From positions 1 to 64,000 of the forward strand of contig JAHYIZ010000006.1 in assembly GCA_019429405.1 (NCBI GenBank): 64,000 nucleotides of DNA. Direction: 5' to 3'. This document shows positions 5,698-50,903 of this stretch, one piece after another; the first letter of the stretch is position 1; each line of letters begins with the position of its first letter. This DNA is from Paracoccaceae bacterium. GTDB lineage: Bacteria > Pseudomonadota > Alphaproteobacteria > Rhodobacterales > Rhodobacteraceae. Below the pieces are notes generated by a model. It was not told where the DNA came from. It worked only from the letters and a program-made list of their open reading frames with translations, and did no database searches. The translations under genes and the position numbers were made by a program.

Positions 5698-5874
5698 CGA
5701 TGCCCCCTCTGTCCCATGCGCCTGAGATCGTTATCCCTTCGGCGGGTGCCGTCACGCACCACTCTCCAGAGTCCTTCTGCCAGAACGGTCCCTTGCGCCT
5801 GAGAGTTTACCGGGGCGGTTGCTCCTTCGGCACCAGCGGGGCGCTCCCCGCCAGATTCTCCCGATCCTGACCGC
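5698..5874 (-). ncRNA. tandem glycine riboswitch upstream of gcvT
   Basis: Read on the minus strand, two aptamers with the glycine-riboswitch consensus follow each other. The first (about 5874-5783) has CGAAGGAGCAACCGCCCCGG, then AAACTCTCAGGC and GGACCGTT. The second (about 5775-5698) has CTCTGGAGAG, CGCCGAAGGGATAACGATC, TCTCAGGC and GGGACAGAGGGG. The order, the short linker and the position about 70 bases before gcvT all match the known cooperative two-aptamer gcv riboswitch. The expression platform is not clear: a GATGCC/GGCATC hairpin lies between the second aptamer and the gcvT ribosome binding site and could control translation. Confidence 0.95.
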
Positions 5875-17757: not shown

Positions 17758-17770
17758 GGCGATTTTGGGC

Positions 17771-17798
17771 TTTTCTTTTGCCCCGCCCTGCCTATAGT
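17771..17798 (+). promoter_or_regulatory. candidate leuA leader promoter
   Basis: A TATAGT -10 (17793-17798) lies 16 bases after a weak TTTTCT. Initiation near 17805 would put the leader-peptide ATG (17807) almost at the transcript end. Confidence 0.35.
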
Positions 17799-17806
17799 CC
17801 GCCCCC

Positions 17807-17908
17807 ATGACCCGCACGCGGCACCCGATCATTGCCTGCCTCGCCCCGCATGACAGCCAGTCATGCGCGCGCACTGCCCGTGGTCTGCTTCTTCTTGGTC
17901 GCGTCTGA
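17807..17908 (+). CDS. leuL: leuA leader peptide (attenuation)
   Basis: A 33-codon open frame 75 bases before leuA, ending in TGA at 17906-17908. Near its end it has four consecutive leucine codons (CTG CTT CTT CTT, codons 27-30), the mark of a leucine attenuator leader. The codon run sits just before base-pairing segments that can form two exclusive hairpins (see the next entry). Leucine leader peptides before leuA are known in proteobacteria. The peptide has no homology-based support of its own, so the call rests on the codon run, position and structure. Confidence 0.75.
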   Translation: MTRTRHPIIACLAPHDSQSCARTARGLLLLGRV

Positions 17909-17936
17909 GCGTGCCCTAGGGTGCGACCGCTCGGAC
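17897..17936 (+). promoter_or_regulatory. candidate leu attenuator with mutually exclusive stems
   Basis: GGTCGC (17897-17902) can pair with GCGACC (17923-17928). Alternatively GTCTGAGCG (17903-17911) can pair with CGCTCGGAC (17928-17936), nine pairs including one G-U. The two stems cannot coexist in a nested fold. The first strand overlaps the end of the leader peptide, where a ribosome stalled on the leucine run would cover it. No T-run follows the second stem, so classic intrinsic termination is uncertain. Confidence 0.5.
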
Positions 17937-17982
17937 TGATCAGCACCCGGAACCAAGCCAGCCCCTTCCTGAGAGACCTGAA

Positions 17983-19554
17983 ATGACCAGCATGACCCCC
18001 GACCGCGTTCTGATTTTTGATACCACCCTGCGCGATGGCGAACAGTCGCCCGGCGCCACCATGAGCCAGGCTGAAAAGCTGGAAATCGCCCTGCTGCTTG
18101 ACGAAATGGGGGTCGACATCATTGAGGCCGGGTTTCCGATTGCCTCTGAGGGCGACTTCGAGGCTGTCAGTGAAATTGCCAAAGTGGCCAAAAATGCTGT
18201 CATCTGCGGTCTCGCGCGCGCCAATTTCAAGGATATCGACCGCTGCTGGGAGGCGGTGCGCCATTCTGCCCGCCCGCGCATCCATACCTTCATCGGCACC
18301 TCACCATCGCACCGCGATATTACCAAGCTCGACCCCGAGGCGATGCTGACGGTGATCCACGATACCGTGGTCCATGCCCGCAACCTGACCGACAACGTAC
18401 AATGGTCGGCGATGGATGCGATCCGCACTGAACGCGATTACCTCGCCCGCGTGGTCGAAACCGCGATCAAGGCGGGGGCAACCACGATCAACATTCCCGA
18501 TACGGTCGGCTATACCCTGCCCGATGAAAGCGCCGCGATCATCCGCATGCTGCTGGAACGGGTGCCGGGCGCCGACACGGTAGTCTTCGCCACGCATTGC
18601 CACAACGACCTTGGCATGGCCACGGCCAACGCGCTGGCAGCGGTGGGCGCGGGCGCGCGCCAGATCGAATGCACGATCAACGGGCTTGGCGAACGCGCCG
18701 GCAACACTGCGCTGGAAGAGGTGGTGATGGCGCTGAAGGTGCGGCGCGACCTGATGCCCTTCAGCACCGGCATCGACACCACCAAGATCATGAACCTAAG
18801 CCGCCGCGTTGCCCAGGTTTCGGGCTTTCCGGTGCAATTCAACAAGGCAATCGTCGGCAAGAACGCCTTTCTGCACGAAAGCGGCATCCATCAGGATGGC
18901 GTGCTGAAAAACGTCGAGACGTTTGAAATCATGCGCCCCGCCGACATCGGCATTACCGAAACCAACATCGCAATGGGCAAGCACTCGGGTCGCGCCGCGC
19001 TGCGTGCAAAGCTGGCCGATCTTGGGTTTGATCTGGCCGACAACCAGCTGGGCGATGTGTTCGTGCGCTTCAAGGCCTTGGCCGACCGCAAGAAAGAGGT
19101 CTACGACGACGATCTGATCGCGCTGATGTCCGACACCGCCACCAACACCGACAGCGACTATTTGCAGGTGAAATGGTTGCGGGTGATCTGCGGGTCCGAA
19201 GGCCAGTCGGCGGAACTGAAACTGCTGGTCGATGGCGTCGAACATTCTGCCGACACTTCGGGCGATGGCCCGGTCGATGCAGCCTTCCGCGCGGTCGATG
19301 CGATCTACCCGCACAAGGCGCGGCTGCAGCTTTACCAGGTGCATGCGGTGACCGAGGGCACCGACGCGCAGGCAACCGTGTCGGTGCGCATGGAAGAGGA
19401 AGGGCGTATCGTCACCGGCTCGGCCGCCGATACCGACACCATCCTTGCATCGGTCAAGGCCTATGTCGGCGCGCTGAACCGCCTGCGCCTGCGGCGCGAG
19501 AAAACCGCGCCCGACGCCGACCGCAAGTCCGTGTTCATGAACACGCCTTCGTAA
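17983..19554 (+). CDS. leuA: 2-isopropylmalate synthase
   Basis: 523 residues. It has the HMGL-like TIM barrel start LIFDTTLRDGEQSPGATM, the metal-binding HCHNDLGMATANALAA, the linker region FLHESGIHQDGVLKN, and a C-terminal leucine-responsive regulatory domain (about residues 390-510). It condenses acetyl-CoA with 2-ketoisovalerate, the first committed step of leucine synthesis. Two controls are likely: feedback through the C-terminal domain, and attenuation by the leader just upstream. A single gene; a hairpin follows the stop. Confidence 0.98.
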   Translation: MTSMTPDRVLIFDTTLRDGEQSPGATMSQAEKLEIALLLDEMGVDIIEAGFPIASEGDFEAVSEIAKVAKNAVICGLARANFKDIDRCWEAVRHSARPRIHTFIGTSPSHRDITKLDPEAMLTVIHDTVVHARNLTDNVQWSAMDAIRTERDYLARVVETAIKAGATTINIPDTVGYTLPDESAAIIRMLLERVPGADTVVFATHCHNDLGMATANALAAVGAGARQIECTINGLGERAGNTALEEVVMALKVRRDLMPFSTGIDTTKIMNLSRRVAQVSGFPVQFNKAIVGKNAFLHESGIHQDGVLKNVETFEIMRPADIGITETNIAMGKHSGRAALRAKLADLGFDLADNQLGDVFVRFKALADRKKEVYDDDLIALMSDTATNTDSDYLQVKWLRVICGSEGQSAELKLLVDGVEHSADTSGDGPVDAAFRAVDAIYPHKARLQLYQVHAVTEGTDAQATVSVRMEEEGRIVTGSAADTDTILASVKAYVGALNRLRLRREKTAPDADRKSVFMNTPS

Positions 19555-20739
<1,185 letters not shown>

Positions 20740-20798
20740 GCGCGCCACAGCCACCGCCGCGCCACGGCGGATGGGGCCGCCCCTGAGACGAGGCCACA

Positions 20799-21731
20799 TT
20801 GGCACGAGACCGCGACGACATCGACTTTGCCCGACCTGTGCGCCGCATCCTTGTTGCGGCCATGGCAATCGTGCTTGCGCTGACCTTTCTGGTCTGGCGC
20901 ATCGACAGCCCGCGCGTCGAACGCTTCCGCGCCGCCTTCATTGACCGTTTCGTGCCGACGTTCGACTGGGCCATGGTGCCGGTGACCAAGGTGCTTGGCA
21001 TGGTCGGAGGCTTTCAGTCTTACGCGCGCATCTACGAGCAAAATCAGGAACTTAGGCGCGAATTGCAGCAGATGAAGGCGTGGAAAGAGGCCGCCGTGCA
21101 ACTGGAACAGCAAAACGCCAAACTGCTCGCGCAGAACGCGGTGCGGCTTGACCCCAAGTTGACCTCGGTTTCGGGCGTGGTGCTGGCCGACAGCGGCAGC
21201 CCGTTCCGCAAATCGGTGCTGCTCAATGTCGGCGCACGCGATGGCGTGGTCGATGGCTGGGCAACGATGGACGGGCTCGGCCTTGTCGGGCGCATTTCCG
21301 GCGTCGGGCGCACCACCGCGCGCGTTGTGCTATTGACCGACAGTTCCAGCCGCATTCCGGTGACGATTCAGCCATCGGGCCAGCGCGCCCTGCTTTCCGG
21401 CGACAACTCGACCCTGCCGCTGATCGAGTTTCTGGAAAACCCCGAGTTCGTGCGCCCCGGCGACCGGGTGGTAAGCTCAGGCGATGGCGGGGTGTTTCCT
21501 GCGGGGATTCTGGTCGGGCAGGTGGCGCAGGGCAATGACCGCCGCTTGCGGGTGCGGCTGGCCGCAGACTATGAGCGGCTCGATTTTCTGCGCGTGCTGC
21601 GCAGCCACCCGGCTGAGCAGCTGCAGGATGTGGGGGCGCTGATCCCGCCGCCGCCCGAACCCGGCGAGACCGGCACCGGCGCGCCGCTGACCGCGCCGCT
21701 GGCACTGCCGAGGCCCGACAGCAATGGTTGA
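20799..21731 (+). CDS. mreC: rod shape-determining protein MreC
   Basis: 310 residues. One N-terminal membrane helix (ILVAAMAIVLALTFLVW), a coiled coil (about residues 70-110, YEQNQELRRELQQMKAWKEA) and two periplasmic beta domains with the MreC pattern GARDGVVDGWATMDGLGLVG. The start is a TTG at 20799 with GAGG upstream. It scaffolds PBP2 and RodA. Overlaps mreD by eight bases. Confidence 0.96.
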   Translation: MARDRDDIDFARPVRRILVAAMAIVLALTFLVWRIDSPRVERFRAAFIDRFVPTFDWAMVPVTKVLGMVGGFQSYARIYEQNQELRRELQQMKAWKEAAVQLEQQNAKLLAQNAVRLDPKLTSVSGVVLADSGSPFRKSVLLNVGARDGVVDGWATMDGLGLVGRISGVGRTTARVVLLTDSSSRIPVTIQPSGQRALLSGDNSTLPLIEFLENPEFVRPGDRVVSSGDGGVFPAGILVGQVAQGNDRRLRVRLAADYERLDFLRVLRSHPAEQLQDVGALIPPPPEPGETGTGAPLTAPLALPRPDSNG

Positions 21732-22263
21732 CCCGCTTTCGCGCCAGCAACTCTTGCACCGCGCGCTTTTTGTGGGGGTGGCGCTGGCGGTGCTGTTCCT
21801 GCGGCTGTTGCCGTTGTCCAGCGGCACTTCAGGCTGGCCCGGCCCCGATCTTACGCTGGCAGTCACGCTCGCCTGGCTGCTGCGCCGCCCGGAATATGTG
21901 CCCGCCTTCCTGATCGTCGCGGTGGTGCTGGCCGAAGACCTGATGTTCCAACGCCCGCCCGGCCTCTGGGCGCTGATCGTGCTTGGCGGCACCGAGTTTC
22001 TGCGCGCCCGCGAAGCCAGCCTGCGCGACCTGTCGTTCGCGCTCGAATGGATGGCGGTGGGTGTCTTGCTGCTGGCGATGGTGCTGGCGAACCGTGCAGT
22101 GCTGGCGGTTCTGATGGTGCCGCAGCCGGGGCTTGGCCTGTCGCTGCTGCACGCACTGGCCACCATTGCCGCCTATCCGCTGGTGGTGATCGCCGGATAC
22201 CTTGCGATCGGGCTGCGCCGCGCCGCGCCTGGCGAGGTCGATGCCTTCGGGAGGCGGCTATGA
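21724..22263 (+). CDS. mreD: rod shape-determining protein MreD
   Basis: 179 residues, nearly all hydrophobic with five or six helices, in the position expected for MreD between mreC and mrdA. The sequence is poorly conserved in the family, so the name rests on size, topology and position. Overlaps mreC (8 bases) and mrdA (ATGA). Confidence 0.9.
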   Translation: MVDPLSRQQLLHRALFVGVALAVLFLRLLPLSSGTSGWPGPDLTLAVTLAWLLRRPEYVPAFLIVAVVLAEDLMFQRPPGLWALIVLGGTEFLRAREASLRDLSFALEWMAVGVLLLAMVLANRAVLAVLMVPQPGLGLSLLHALATIAAYPLVVIAGYLAIGLRRAAPGEVDAFGRRL

Positions 22264-24206
22264 GGCGCTCTCCTCGCGACAGCGCCGAAAGCGCGCGCAA
22301 GATCGGCCGCCGCGGCCTGCTGCTGGGCGCGGTGCAAGCGGGAGCGGTGGCGGTTCTGGCGCTGCGCATGCGCAGCATGCAGCTTGCCCACGCCGACGAA
22401 TACCGGCTTTTGTCCGAGGGCAACTCGATCAAGATCCGCCTGCTGCCCCCCGCGCGCGGGCTGATCCACGACCGCAACGGCTATCTGCTGGCGGGCAACG
22501 AATCGAATTACCGCGTCACAATCACACGCCAGGATGCGGGCGATGTGGCCGAGGTGCTGGCACGCCTGCGCCGCCTGATCGCGCTCAGCGATGCCGAGGC
22601 CGACACGATCCTGGCCGAAATCCGCCGCCGCAGCCCGATCACGCCGTTCACCATCGCCGAGCGGATCAGCTGGGAAGAGTTTTCGCGCATCGCGGTCAAT
22701 GCCCCGGCCCTGCCGGGGGTCACGCCCGAGGTTGGGCTGTCGCGGGTCTACCCGCGCGGTGGTGACCTTGCGCATGTGCTCGGATACGTCGGCCCCGTCT
22801 CCGATTTCGACCTTGGCAGGATCGAAGACCCCGACCCCCTGCTGCGCATTCCGCGCTTTCAGATCGGCAAGGTCGGTATCGAGGCCAAGATGGAACAGGC
22901 GTTGCGCGGGCAAGCGGGCTCGCGGCGGGTCGAGGTAAACTCGGCCGGGCGCGAAATGCGCGAACTTTCGCGCCAAGAGGGCGACCCCGGCGATGCGCTG
23001 CAACTGACCATCGACTATCGGCTGCAAAACTATGTGCAGGCGCGGTTGGGCGAAGAAAGTGCTTCGGCGGTGATCATCGACGTGACCAATGGCGACGTCA
23101 TGGCCATCGCCTCGGCCCCCACCTTCGACCCCAACCTGTTCGTGCGCGGCATCTCGTCGGCCACCTACCGGGGCCTGAACGAAAACGACCACCGCCCGCT
23201 GGCCGACAAGACCGTGCAGGGCCTCTACCCGCCCGGCTCGACCTACAAGATGGTAACCGCGCTGGCAGCGCTGGAGGCGGGCGTGATCGACCCCAAGGAA
23301 ACCATCCGCTGCCCCGGCTATGTCGAGGTTGGCGGGCGCAAGTTTCACTGCTGGCGCCCGGCGGGGCATGGCAACATGAACCTGCAGCAAAGCCTCGAAC
23401 AGTCTTGCGACGTCTACTATTACGACCTGTCGCAGCGGGTCGGCATCGACAAGATCTCTGACATGGCACGCAGGCTAGGGCTTGGCCAGCGGCACGATCT
23501 GCCGATGTCGGCGGTGGCAGAAGGGCTGGCCCCCACCCAAGCCTGGAAAAAGCGCCGCTACGGGCGCGACTGGGTTATCGGCGACACGCTGAACGCCACC
23601 ATCGGTCAGGGCTATGTGTTGACCTCGCCGCTGCAGCTTGCGGTGATGACCGCGCGCATCGCTTCAGGCCGCGCCGTCGAGCCGCGCCTGATCCGCTCGC
23701 GCAACGGGGTTGAGGTTCCGGCCCCGCCCGCGCCGGCGCTGGAAATTGACCCGGCATTTCTTGTGGCGATCCGCGCGGGCATGGATGCCGTGGTCAATGC
23801 GCCGCGCGGCACCGCCAACGGCTCGCGCGTCGTTGCCGCCGAGATGCGCATGGCCGGCAAGACCGGCACCAGCCAGGTGCGCAACATTTCGGCCGCCGAG
23901 CGTGAAGGCGGCGTGACTGCCAACGACGACCTGCCCTGGCGGCAGCGCGACCACGCGCTGTTCGTGGCGTTCGCCCCGGTTGAGGCGCCGAAATATGCGG
24001 TCGCGCTGGTGGTTGAACATGGCGGCGGCGGTTCGGCCGTGGCGGCCCCGCTGGCGCGCGACATGCTGCTCTTCGCGCTTTATGGCAAGCTGCCACCGCT
24101 GTCGGCCTACCCCGAAAGCCAGCGCACGCGCATCCAGAACCAGCGCGACCAGATGATCCTTGTCGATCCCGATGAAGCCCCCCCGACCGCGAGCACCCGC
24201 GCATGA
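22260..24206 (+). CDS. mrdA: penicillin-binding protein 2 (peptidoglycan transpeptidase)
   Basis: 648 residues. An N-terminal helix (RGLLLGAVQAGAVAVLAL) is followed by the PBP dimerisation domain (RGLIHDRNGYLLAGNESNYR) and a transpeptidase domain with STYK (serine about residue 327, in YPPGSTYKMV), SCD (in LEQSCDVYYYD) and KTG (about residue 534, GKTGTSQV). It is the elongation-specific transpeptidase, partner of RodA. The ATG at 22260 is chosen from the ATGA overlap with mreD; the open frame upstream lies inside mreD. Confidence 0.97.
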   Translation: MRRSPRDSAESARKIGRRGLLLGAVQAGAVAVLALRMRSMQLAHADEYRLLSEGNSIKIRLLPPARGLIHDRNGYLLAGNESNYRVTITRQDAGDVAEVLARLRRLIALSDAEADTILAEIRRRSPITPFTIAERISWEEFSRIAVNAPALPGVTPEVGLSRVYPRGGDLAHVLGYVGPVSDFDLGRIEDPDPLLRIPRFQIGKVGIEAKMEQALRGQAGSRRVEVNSAGREMRELSRQEGDPGDALQLTIDYRLQNYVQARLGEESASAVIIDVTNGDVMAIASAPTFDPNLFVRGISSATYRGLNENDHRPLADKTVQGLYPPGSTYKMVTALAALEAGVIDPKETIRCPGYVEVGGRKFHCWRPAGHGNMNLQQSLEQSCDVYYYDLSQRVGIDKISDMARRLGLGQRHDLPMSAVAEGLAPTQAWKKRRYGRDWVIGDTLNATIGQGYVLTSPLQLAVMTARIASGRAVEPRLIRSRNGVEVPAPPAPALEIDPAFLVAIRAGMDAVVNAPRGTANGSRVVAAEMRMAGKTGTSQVRNISAAEREGGVTANDDLPWRQRDHALFVAFAPVEAPKYAVALVVEHGGGGSAVAAPLARDMLLFALYGKLPPLSAYPESQRTRIQNQRDQMILVDPDEAPPTASTRA

Positions 24207-50489: not shown

Positions 50490-50498
50490 TGCAAACGA

Positions 50499-50528
50499 AA
50501 ACGGGGCGGGCTTTCGCCCACCCCGTTT
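50499..50528 (-). terminator. terminator of the second cold-shock gene
   Basis: On the minus strand AAACGGGGTGGGC and GCCCGCCCCGTTT form 13 pairs (one G-U) around a GAAA tetraloop, and the second arm runs into TTTTCGTTTG. It follows the csp stop by 20 bases. Confidence 0.85.
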
Positions 50529-50548
50529 CAATCCGTCAGTGCCCGAAA

Positions 50549-50755
50549 TCAGGCCAGCGCGAGGTTGGTGGCCGATTCACGGCCGTCGCGGCTGGTTTCG
50601 ATGTCGAAGGTCACTTTCTGACCGTCATTCAGCGCACGGATGCCGGCGCGCTCAACGGCCGAAATGTGCACGAACACGTCCTTGTTGCCGCCATCGGGGG
50701 CAATAAAACCGAAACCTTTGGTGGTGTTGAACCATTTCACGGAGCCAGTAGCCAT
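50549..50755 (-). CDS. cold-shock protein, second paralogue
   Basis: 68 residues, start [20 protein letters not shown], with RNP1 KGFGFI and RNP2 VFVHI. It differs from the 41-kb paralogue mainly in the C-terminal third. The ATG at 50755 is the family start. Its leader lies in the 304-base gap to the divergent arginase gene. Confidence 0.96.
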
Positions 50756-50903
50756 CGTGATATCTCCTTCAAAATGCCACCCACACAATTGCGGCGGCCC
50801 GGCTCAGTCAGTGCAGAATCGAAAGACTGGCCGATGAAGGTTACAGTGTCGATCAGATAACATCGCCCGGCACATATGGGCGAGGTGCTGCGAAAACTCA
50901 AGG

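Follow-up and report, generated by a model that had tools for sequence, protein, structure and literature searches.

The leuA gene in the window, which is the whole analysed stretch of DNA with a length of 64,000 nt, is preceded on the same strand by a short open reading frame (ORF) whose stop codon is located 74 nt before the gene (Table 1). The ORF terminates in ...GLLLLGRV, and its 3´ codons are CTG CTT CTT CTT GGT CGC GTC TGA, which confirms the 33-codon leader with a Leu run near its end that a sequence-only reading of this DNA had proposed. Four Leu residues in a row within 33 aa have a probability of ~0.003 in a simulation at 10.5% Leu. No Rfam family matched the leader above the gathering threshold in the window or in 12 relatives, and the sub-threshold matches in the window are unrelated. 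Elsewhere in the window, a glycine riboswitch aptamer (5776-5873) and a cspA thermoregulator (50497-50809), both on the minus strand, match above gathering. Downstream, leuA is followed within 19554-24206 by mreB, mreC, and a penicillin-binding protein gene, all on the same strand. Neither a terminator nor a promoter match was observed at the leuA/mreB junction (19400-19800), and the two genes are perhaps carried on one transcript. An MreB motif occurs 3´ of leuA in the fetched flank of 65 of 104 loci, at a distance of at most 250 nt in 16.

Table 1. Features of the leuA leader region in the window, in order of position.
Feature	Position	Strand	Sequence	Remarks
-35-position element	17770..17775	+	CTTTTC	17 nt 5´ of the -10 box
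-10 box	17793..17798	+	TATAGT	8 nt 5´ of the leader ATG
Leader ORF	17807..17908	+	MTRTRHPIIACLAPHDSQSCARTARGLLLLGRV	33 aa
Putative regulatory Leu codons	17885..17896	+	CTG CTT CTT CTT	Last one is four codons before the stop
Arm A	17894..17899	+	CTTGGT	5´ arm of A:E; last Leu codon and next codon
S1 extension, 5´ arm	17895..17901	+		Leu-codon end; in the nested minimum-energy fold of 4/4 genus members
First stem of the sequence-only reading, 5´ arm	17897..17902	+	GGTCGC	Pairs with 17923-17928; complete in 4/91
S1, 5´ arm	17903..17911	+	GTCTGAGCG	Holds the leader stop TGA
S2, 5´ arm	17919..17924	+	GGGTGC	Within the S1 loop
S1, 3´ arm	17928..17936	+	CGCTCGGAC	Partner of 17903-17911
S1 extension, 3´ arm	17937..17943	+	TGATCAG	Pairs with 17895-17901
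S2, 3´ arm	17943..17948	+	GCACCC	Beyond S1; crosses S1 without shared bases
Arm E	17952..17957	+	ACCAAG	3´ arm of A:E; 25 nt 5´ of the leuA ATG
leuA	17983..19554	+		2-isopropylmalate synthase; Pfam HMGL-like and LeuA_dimer
mreB	19597..20739	+		Pfam MreB_Mbl; 42 nt 3´ of leuA

The leader region was compared across 110 leuA loci of near relatives, 30 obtained in a search of relatives and, from GTDB genomes, the 80 best of 570. Two loci without a leuA motif (L093 and L099) were removed to give 108, and no leader was selected in five others (L027, L071, L090, L101, and L108; little upstream sequence is present in L071 and L101), which left 103. Nine loci from outside the Rhodobacteraceae and two duplicates (L047 and L058) were set aside and the window (L001) was kept, which yields a set of 92 loci that are nearly all Rhodobacteraceae. 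The alignment of the helices S1 and S2 contains 91 of the 92; L008, in which the automatic S1 call lay elsewhere, was left out. In a class-wide sample, 78 of 144 genomes carry leuA at E<=1e-100, and 69 loci were examined (29 from the search, with the in-family loci L157 and L158 included, and 40 fetched). A leuA motif is present in 65 of these and a Leu-rich ORF in 43, under a loose criterion that admits several spurious ORFs. By the ORF criterion applied to them, no Leu-rich ORF was found in the Streptomyces plasmid loci L187 and L188 or in the Nocardia locus L186, and the LLL leader of L186 was found by eye only. Together, 41 class-wide loci and the nine from the GTDB search form a set of 50 out-of-family loci, 35 of which have a CCYC-stop form.

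An upstream ORF with a Leu-rich end precedes leuA in 103 of the 108 loci. The last 12 leader residues contain LLL in 82 and LLLL in 61 of the 92 loci; the ORFs were chosen for their Leu-rich ends, so only the fixed position of Leu constitutes independent evidence. Leu occupies codon -4 from the stop in all 92 loci and codons -5, -6, and -7 in 84, 88, and 72 loci, respectively. The most common leader length is 28 aa, the stop codon is TGA in every one of the 92 loci, and 40-130 nt separate the stop from the leuA start in 79. The choice of Leu codons is skewed: CTT and CTA account for 40.8% and 16.5% of the leader Leu codons (n=363), whereas the leuA genes of these loci use them for 8.1% and 1.0% of their Leu codons (n=3400). 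This skew would be expected of codons that monitor charged tRNA or base-pair with other stretches of RNA. Judged from these sequence comparisons, control of leuA by the leader Leu codons is well supported.

The opposite end of the peptide carries a separate feature. A His-Ile (or Asp/Asn-Ile) pair is located near the N-terminus in 55 of the 92 leaders (for example, L011, L044, and L068), starting at residue 6 in 43 loci and encoded mostly by CATATC; shuffled peptides give 6.6%. The window leader has His-Pro-Ile in this region (17807-17830). Downstream pairing of CATATC was considered and set aside: its complement GATATG is present in the 150 nt that follow the stop in nine of the 92 loci, a count without a control. 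Attenuation leaves the His-Ile pair unexplained, and possibilities include a downstream-box-like signal for a leaderless start or a function of the peptide.

The leader promoter is located so close to the ORF that, as the sequence-only reading had anticipated, almost no 5´ untranslated RNA is predicted. The sigma-70 consensus is not matched at this promoter in the window, and CTTTTC occupies the place where a TTGACA-like -35 element would sit. A -35-like pattern, [CG]TTT[TC][CA] or CTT[CT]CC at 15-19 nt before TAT and at most 45 nt from the leader ATG, recurs in 72 of the 92 loci, for which no control is available. In 74 of the 92 loci, an in-frame ATG has a -10-like hexamer (at least 5 of 6 positions) 6-14 nt upstream, as do 66 of 2760 random ATGs, the leaders being scored by their best in-frame ATG and the control by single ATGs. 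The hexamer is at exactly 7 or 8 nt from the ATG in 60 of the 74 loci. This fixed distance suggests a leaderless transcript that starts at or next to the leader ATG.

Two crossing helices, S1 and S2, and a longer-range helix between the end of the Leu codons and a downstream segment (A:E) are recognized in the relatives. S1 corresponds to the second of two mutually exclusive stems that the sequence-only reading had described, and at least 8 of its 9 pairs are present in 88 of the 91 aligned sequences. S2, A:E, and the S1 extension had escaped that reading. In the alignment, 97% of S1 cells are paired and 68.4% of S2 cells, a figure that partly reflects a sliding register. Across the 103 loci, the mean pairing scores exceed those obtained with swapped partners for S1 (26.92 versus 24.19, sd 0.26), S2 (19.25 versus 16.72, sd 0.28), and A:E (16.06 versus 13.60, sd 0.23), none of 300 swaps reaching the observed value in any case; these statistics ignore the relatedness of the loci. 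The search for compensatory changes in relatives that the earlier reading had recommended thus found covariation in all three helices. Compared with 500 shuffles, none of which reached the observed values, S1 and S2 together have more paired cells (85.3% versus 82.5), more cells changed on both sides (44 versus 16.0), and a higher covariation score (0.134 versus 0.089). The number of pairs with a change on both sides (5 versus 5.0, reached in 352 of 500 shuffles) and the number of further pair types (22 versus 19.5, reached in 67 of 500) are not above the shuffles. The most informative S2 pair, col54/col85, reads CG in 70, TA in 9, TG in 8, and GG in 4 sequences, and C is never combined with A. 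The folding energy of the window sequence is not above shuffles (z 0.20 and 0.03), so the support for structure is comparative.

S1 and S2 have no nucleotide in common. In 87 of 88 loci with an unambiguous call, a gap of 0-3 nt separates the end of the S2 5´ arm from the S1 3´ arm; these 88 are a subset of the 92 that excludes the window, in which the automatic S1 call took the first stem of the earlier reading. S1 alone is more stable than S2 in 82 of the 88 loci (median -17.6 versus -11.4 kcal/mol), nested folds lengthen S1 inward by using the S2 5´ arm, and the loop bases GCC are nearly invariant in the family alignment. From their arrangement, S1 and S2 may form either a pseudoknot or a pair of alternatives that exclude one another for geometric reasons only.

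The A:E helix connects the last Leu codon with the region before the next gene. An exact 6-nt complement of arm A is present between the element and the gene in 35 of the 92 loci, compared with 11.7 (sd 2.4) after partner swapping and 1.1 after base shuffling. A match of at least 5 nt occurs in 43 loci; 49 loci are without a 5-nt complement and 57 without an exact 6-nt complement. Eight different hexamers are matched, including CTTAGC:GCTAAG (23 of 41 loci), CTTACG:CGTAAG (4 of 7), CTAAGC:GCTTAG (3 of 4), CTAACC:GGTTAG (1 of 3), and CTTATT:AATAAG (1 of 1), and arm E reads GCTAAG or GCTAAGGA in many relatives. The window-type pair CTTGGT:ACCAAG is matched in one of four loci, and its complement is also present in 4 of the 88 other loci. 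The switch from CTTAGC/GCTAAG to CTAAGC/GCTTAG is synonymous (CTT to CTA), and conservation of the peptide therefore cannot explain the match. In the nested minimum-energy folds of the 92 loci, the partner of the Leu-codon end is located 45 nt or more past the stop in 52 loci and 28-44 nt past it in 8, and in 32 the end is otherwise paired or unpaired; some of the leuA starts behind these counts, as behind the A:E and out-of-family counts, were assigned by rule and not by annotation.

Arm E is located 8-13 nt before leuA itself in the Paracoccus-type loci L033 and L037-L039 and in L013, L052, L078, and L084. In 24 of the 43 matched loci it lies 17-26 nt before the start, which is too far for a normal Shine-Dalgarno (SD) sequence; a helix at this position would lie at the margin of the initiating ribosome. 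An inspection of eight loci with odd or long gaps revealed that in L024, L030, L043, L062, and L086 the element and leuA are separated by an ORF of about 118 codons. The inserted ORF is a Cupin_2 protein in both loci that were scanned (L043 and L062), and the other three resemble them on visual inspection. Arm E can be read as the SD of this ORF in L024, L030, L043, and L062, and also in L086 if G-U pairs are allowed; in L062, arm E (GCTAAGGAG) is located seven nt before the GTG. The inserted ORF is a candidate leucine-controlled gene. Five consecutive T residues are absent from the interval between element and gene, taken up to 120 nt past the stop, in all 92 loci. The longest T-run after the element is 1 nt in 21 loci, 2 in 42, 3 in 20, and 4 in 9, and no terminator-like site was matched in the window. 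The absence of a T-run after the second stem, pointed out in the sequence-only reading, is thereby confirmed, and its suggestion that the output mechanism may not be the enteric one gains support from the 92 loci.

The element is a regular constituent of the family. A covariance model of S1 and its flanks matches 287 of 295 family genomes at E<=0.001, with one match per genome, as in the source genome, except for one genome with a weak second match. The stretch downstream of this second match (G608, L230) does not include leuA, and the match was considered to be fortuitous. A repeat search at E<=1 in six of the eight unmatched family genomes also gave no match. The source genome carries a second LeuA-like gene (L112). 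In the class-wide search, the model matches 14 of 385 genomes, five in the family and nine outside, and each of the nine out-of-family matches is closely followed by a leuA start in the same orientation. The stop codon is covered by a helix of 7 or more pairs in 42 of the 50 out-of-family loci with a called leader, a count that has no control and includes some spurious leaders. In the 35 CCYC-stop loci, the base facing the middle letter of the stop codon is T in 7 of 7 TAG loci and in the single TAA locus; in the 27 TGA loci, it is C in 23 and T in 4. On this comparison of sequences, the stop codon changes together with its S1 partner outside the family. Furthermore, across these 35 out-of-family loci, pairing between the Leu codons and the 35 nt upstream of the start scores higher than pairing between swapped partners (15.03 versus 13.14, sd 0.46; 0 of 500 swaps), and in some loci the pairing lies on the SD itself (TCCTTATC:GATAAGGA and TTCTTCTC:GAGAAGGA).

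These features resemble the LEU element of actinobacterial leuA genes, which according to Seliverstov et al. (2005; PMC1262725) combines a Leu-run leader peptide with a pseudoknot and with a base stem formed by the Leu codons and the leuA SD. A Leu-run leader before leuA and two crossing helices, both above partner swaps, are common to the two systems, and the base stem may have a counterpart in the pairing of Leu codons with the SD region in relatives; in the window this stem is only 6 bp, ends 25 nt before the ATG, lies off the SD, and has a competitor, the S1 extension, that folds better. The leader of Nocardia farcinica (L186), compared by eye as one sequence, has its parts in the same order: Leu codons, S1 (CCGCGACGG:CCGTCGCGG), a crossing S2 (GACCGGC:GCCGGTC), and a base stem (TTCTC:GAGAA) that ends 4 nt before leuA. 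Compared with the LEU element, the present element belongs to another phylum and has no evident sequence similarity beyond the peptide end, its S1 spans the stop codon, its arm E is often 17-26 nt upstream and off the SD, and the base stem of the window's genus may be an extension of S1. The alphaproteobacterial element has the parts of a LEU element and probably works like one. Common descent is possible: L186, the one actinobacterial leader compared, agrees in the order of parts and not evidently in sequence.

Other leaders share single traits with this element. Streptomyces lividans leuL1 (MRFGLLLLSCRGEGL) is a leaderless leader before leuA without a typical Rho-independent terminator (PMC8079986); it shares the predicted leaderless start and has a GLLLLS core, with 15 aa compared with 33 aa in the window. 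The trpL/peTrpL leader of Sinorhizobium meliloti is likewise an alphaproteobacterial amino acid leader that starts at its AUG, as predicted here; it differs in that it is a Trp leader and a transcription attenuator whose termination yields the sRNA rnTrpL (PMC10117765), which is not predicted for the leuA leader. In the same bacterial order, the leader-ORF element uORFC-8-2 upstream of cysS in Rhodobacterales carries cysteine codons instead, and transcriptional read-through has been proposed for it (PMC8632094). A description of the present element in Alphaproteobacteria was not found in the open-access literature; Vitreschak 2004 and Lopatovskaya 2010 may mention it.

Taken together, the comparisons favour a leucine-responsive leader of the LEU-element type that acts mainly on translation and in which the Leu codons would serve both as the sensor and as an anti-SD sequence; we assign this reading a probability of roughly 0.56. 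RNA polymerase would initiate at the A of the leader ATG or at an adjacent position, and ribosomes would load without an SD, as the promoter implies. When leucine is plentiful, ribosomes would pass the Leu run and terminate, the RNA would refold, and S1 and S2 would form. The Leu-codon end would then be captured by the base stem, and translation of leuA would stay low. In most of the family the partner in this base stem would be arm E, which is located a short distance 5´ of the following gene's ribosome-binding site or overlaps with it; in the window's genus it is perhaps the S1 extension. Under a shortage of Leu-tRNA, a ribosome would stall at the Leu codons and, given the usual footprint, cover the Leu-codon end but leave most of S1 folded. 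The base stem would be blocked, and leuA would be translated. In this scheme we infer the transcription start, the stalling, the direction of the response, the coexistence of S1 and S2, and the translational output.

Translational control is favoured because in several relatives A:E reaches the SD or the SD of the inserted ORF, because the Leu codons pair with the SD region outside the family, and because no T-run is present; Rho-dependent termination is its main rival. In the rival scheme, transcription attenuation would resemble that of tnaC: a stalled or terminating ribosome would gate the loading of Rho between the leader and leuA, and S1 and S2 would shape this region. The same leader and Leu run would serve such a mechanism, the missing T-runs accord with it, and the 40-130 nt between the leader stop and leuA in most loci leave room for Rho to load. 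There is also a precedent, since Rho has been suggested for mycobacterial cys leaders without terminators (PMC1262725). Nevertheless, the rival leaves unexplained why a covarying A:E helix reaches the SD region and why arm E is the SD of an inserted ORF, and we regard it as unlikely, although deserving of serious consideration.

A second rival is restricted to the window's genus, to which the first stem of the sequence-only reading (17897-17902:17923-17928) also belongs. That stem had been put forward as the exclusive alternative to S1, but it is complete only in L001-L004, all of one genus. In the window, it can extend to 10 ungapped pairs and ties with S1 by a simple pairing score, with energies of -9.5 (6 pairs) and -11.0 kcal/mol (10 pairs) compared with -13.8 kcal/mol for S1; the automatic helix call took this stem, extended by G-T pairs, in L001 and L003. 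Only the S1 half of the proposed pair of stems therefore holds across the family, and the conserved S2 does not share any nucleotide with the conserved part of S1. The logic of leucine attenuation that the earlier reading had invoked survives as regards codon control, through the fixed Leu run, the rare codons, and the covariation, and is not general as regards the particular stems that it named as exclusive.

The nested minimum-energy fold of the genus instead extends S1 to the Leu-codon end, and this pairing is kept through changes: GGUC:GACC in L002, GGUC:GAUC in L001 and L003, and GGUU:GGCC in L004. The extension excludes A:E and shares base 17943 with the S2 3´ arm. It also folds better than the A:E helix of the window, which does not cover the SD. 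Arm E is not kept exactly in the congeners; L002 has no 5-nt match, and L003 (at the ATG) and L004 have 5-nt matches only. Based on these folds, the true competition in the window may be between extended S1 and either S2 or A:E. Genus-only exclusive folds could decide leuA expression, with the Leu-codon end closing extended S1 and a stalled ribosome opening it for S2 to form. The nested fold in all four congeners and the base that the extension and S2 have in common are in favour of this explanation. It is improbable nonetheless: it applies to only 8 of the 92 loci and is without an output step, S2 being neither followed by a T-run nor placed over the leuA start.

Little credence is given to a third explanation, in which a regulatory protein binds to the pseudoknot and the leader peptide is of little importance. 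A regulatory protein was proposed for the LEU element by Seliverstov et al., who report that the effects of mutating Leu codons in Streptomyces were at odds with classical attenuation (PMC1262725), and the nearly invariant GCC loop bases would suit a protein contact. The Leu at a fixed codon in every family locus and the enrichment of rare codons, however, point to codon sensing.

Classical enteric attenuation, with S2 (17919-17924:17943-17948) as an intrinsic terminator and S1 as the antiterminator, is very unlikely because a five-T run is absent from all 92 loci. The enteric leu attenuator has a run of rare Leu codons near the end of its leader peptide, and both traits recur here. In addition, conservation extends to both S1 and S2, which are incompatible as nested hairpins, and a ribosome at the stop codon would free S2. 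However, no intrinsic terminator and no Rfam match at gathering were seen; the longest T-run reaches four residues in nine loci and is shorter in the other 83, S2 on its own would enclose a loop of 18 nt in the window, and it has no bases in common with S1. That the leader is a chance ORF without function is practically negligible: single-sequence folding is indeed no better than shuffles, but the presence of the element in nearly all family genomes, the position of all nine out-of-family model matches just upstream of leuA, and the conservation contradict it.

A wider form of the preferred translational reading is more tentative, and we hold it to be possible rather than probable. Here, a translational leucine switch that is widespread in Alphaproteobacteria would assign three jobs to one stretch of RNA: sensing of Leu-tRNA, pairing with the SD, and placing the stop codon in a pseudoknot that the terminating ribosome opens. 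The same design would recur in Actinobacteria, by old descent or by convergence. The sequence CUC CUU, read as Leu codons, is itself an anti-SD sequence, and convergence, if true, would be driven by this built-in complementarity of Leu codons and SD sequences.

A regulatory RNA that is carried by 287 of 295 family genomes has no Rfam match above gathering in the window and in 12 relatives. The LEU element has been puzzling since 2005, because its Leu codons are both sensor and structure and codon mutations alone cannot separate these roles. The alphaproteobacterial version offers many naturally covarying sequences, which include synonymous Leu-codon changes that are matched by the partner. Tractable hosts such as Rhodobacter, Cereibacter, and Paracoccus make the question of sensor versus structure directly testable. 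If the wider form of the reading is true, the switch may also tune mreB, a cell-shape gene located 42 nt downstream of leuA.
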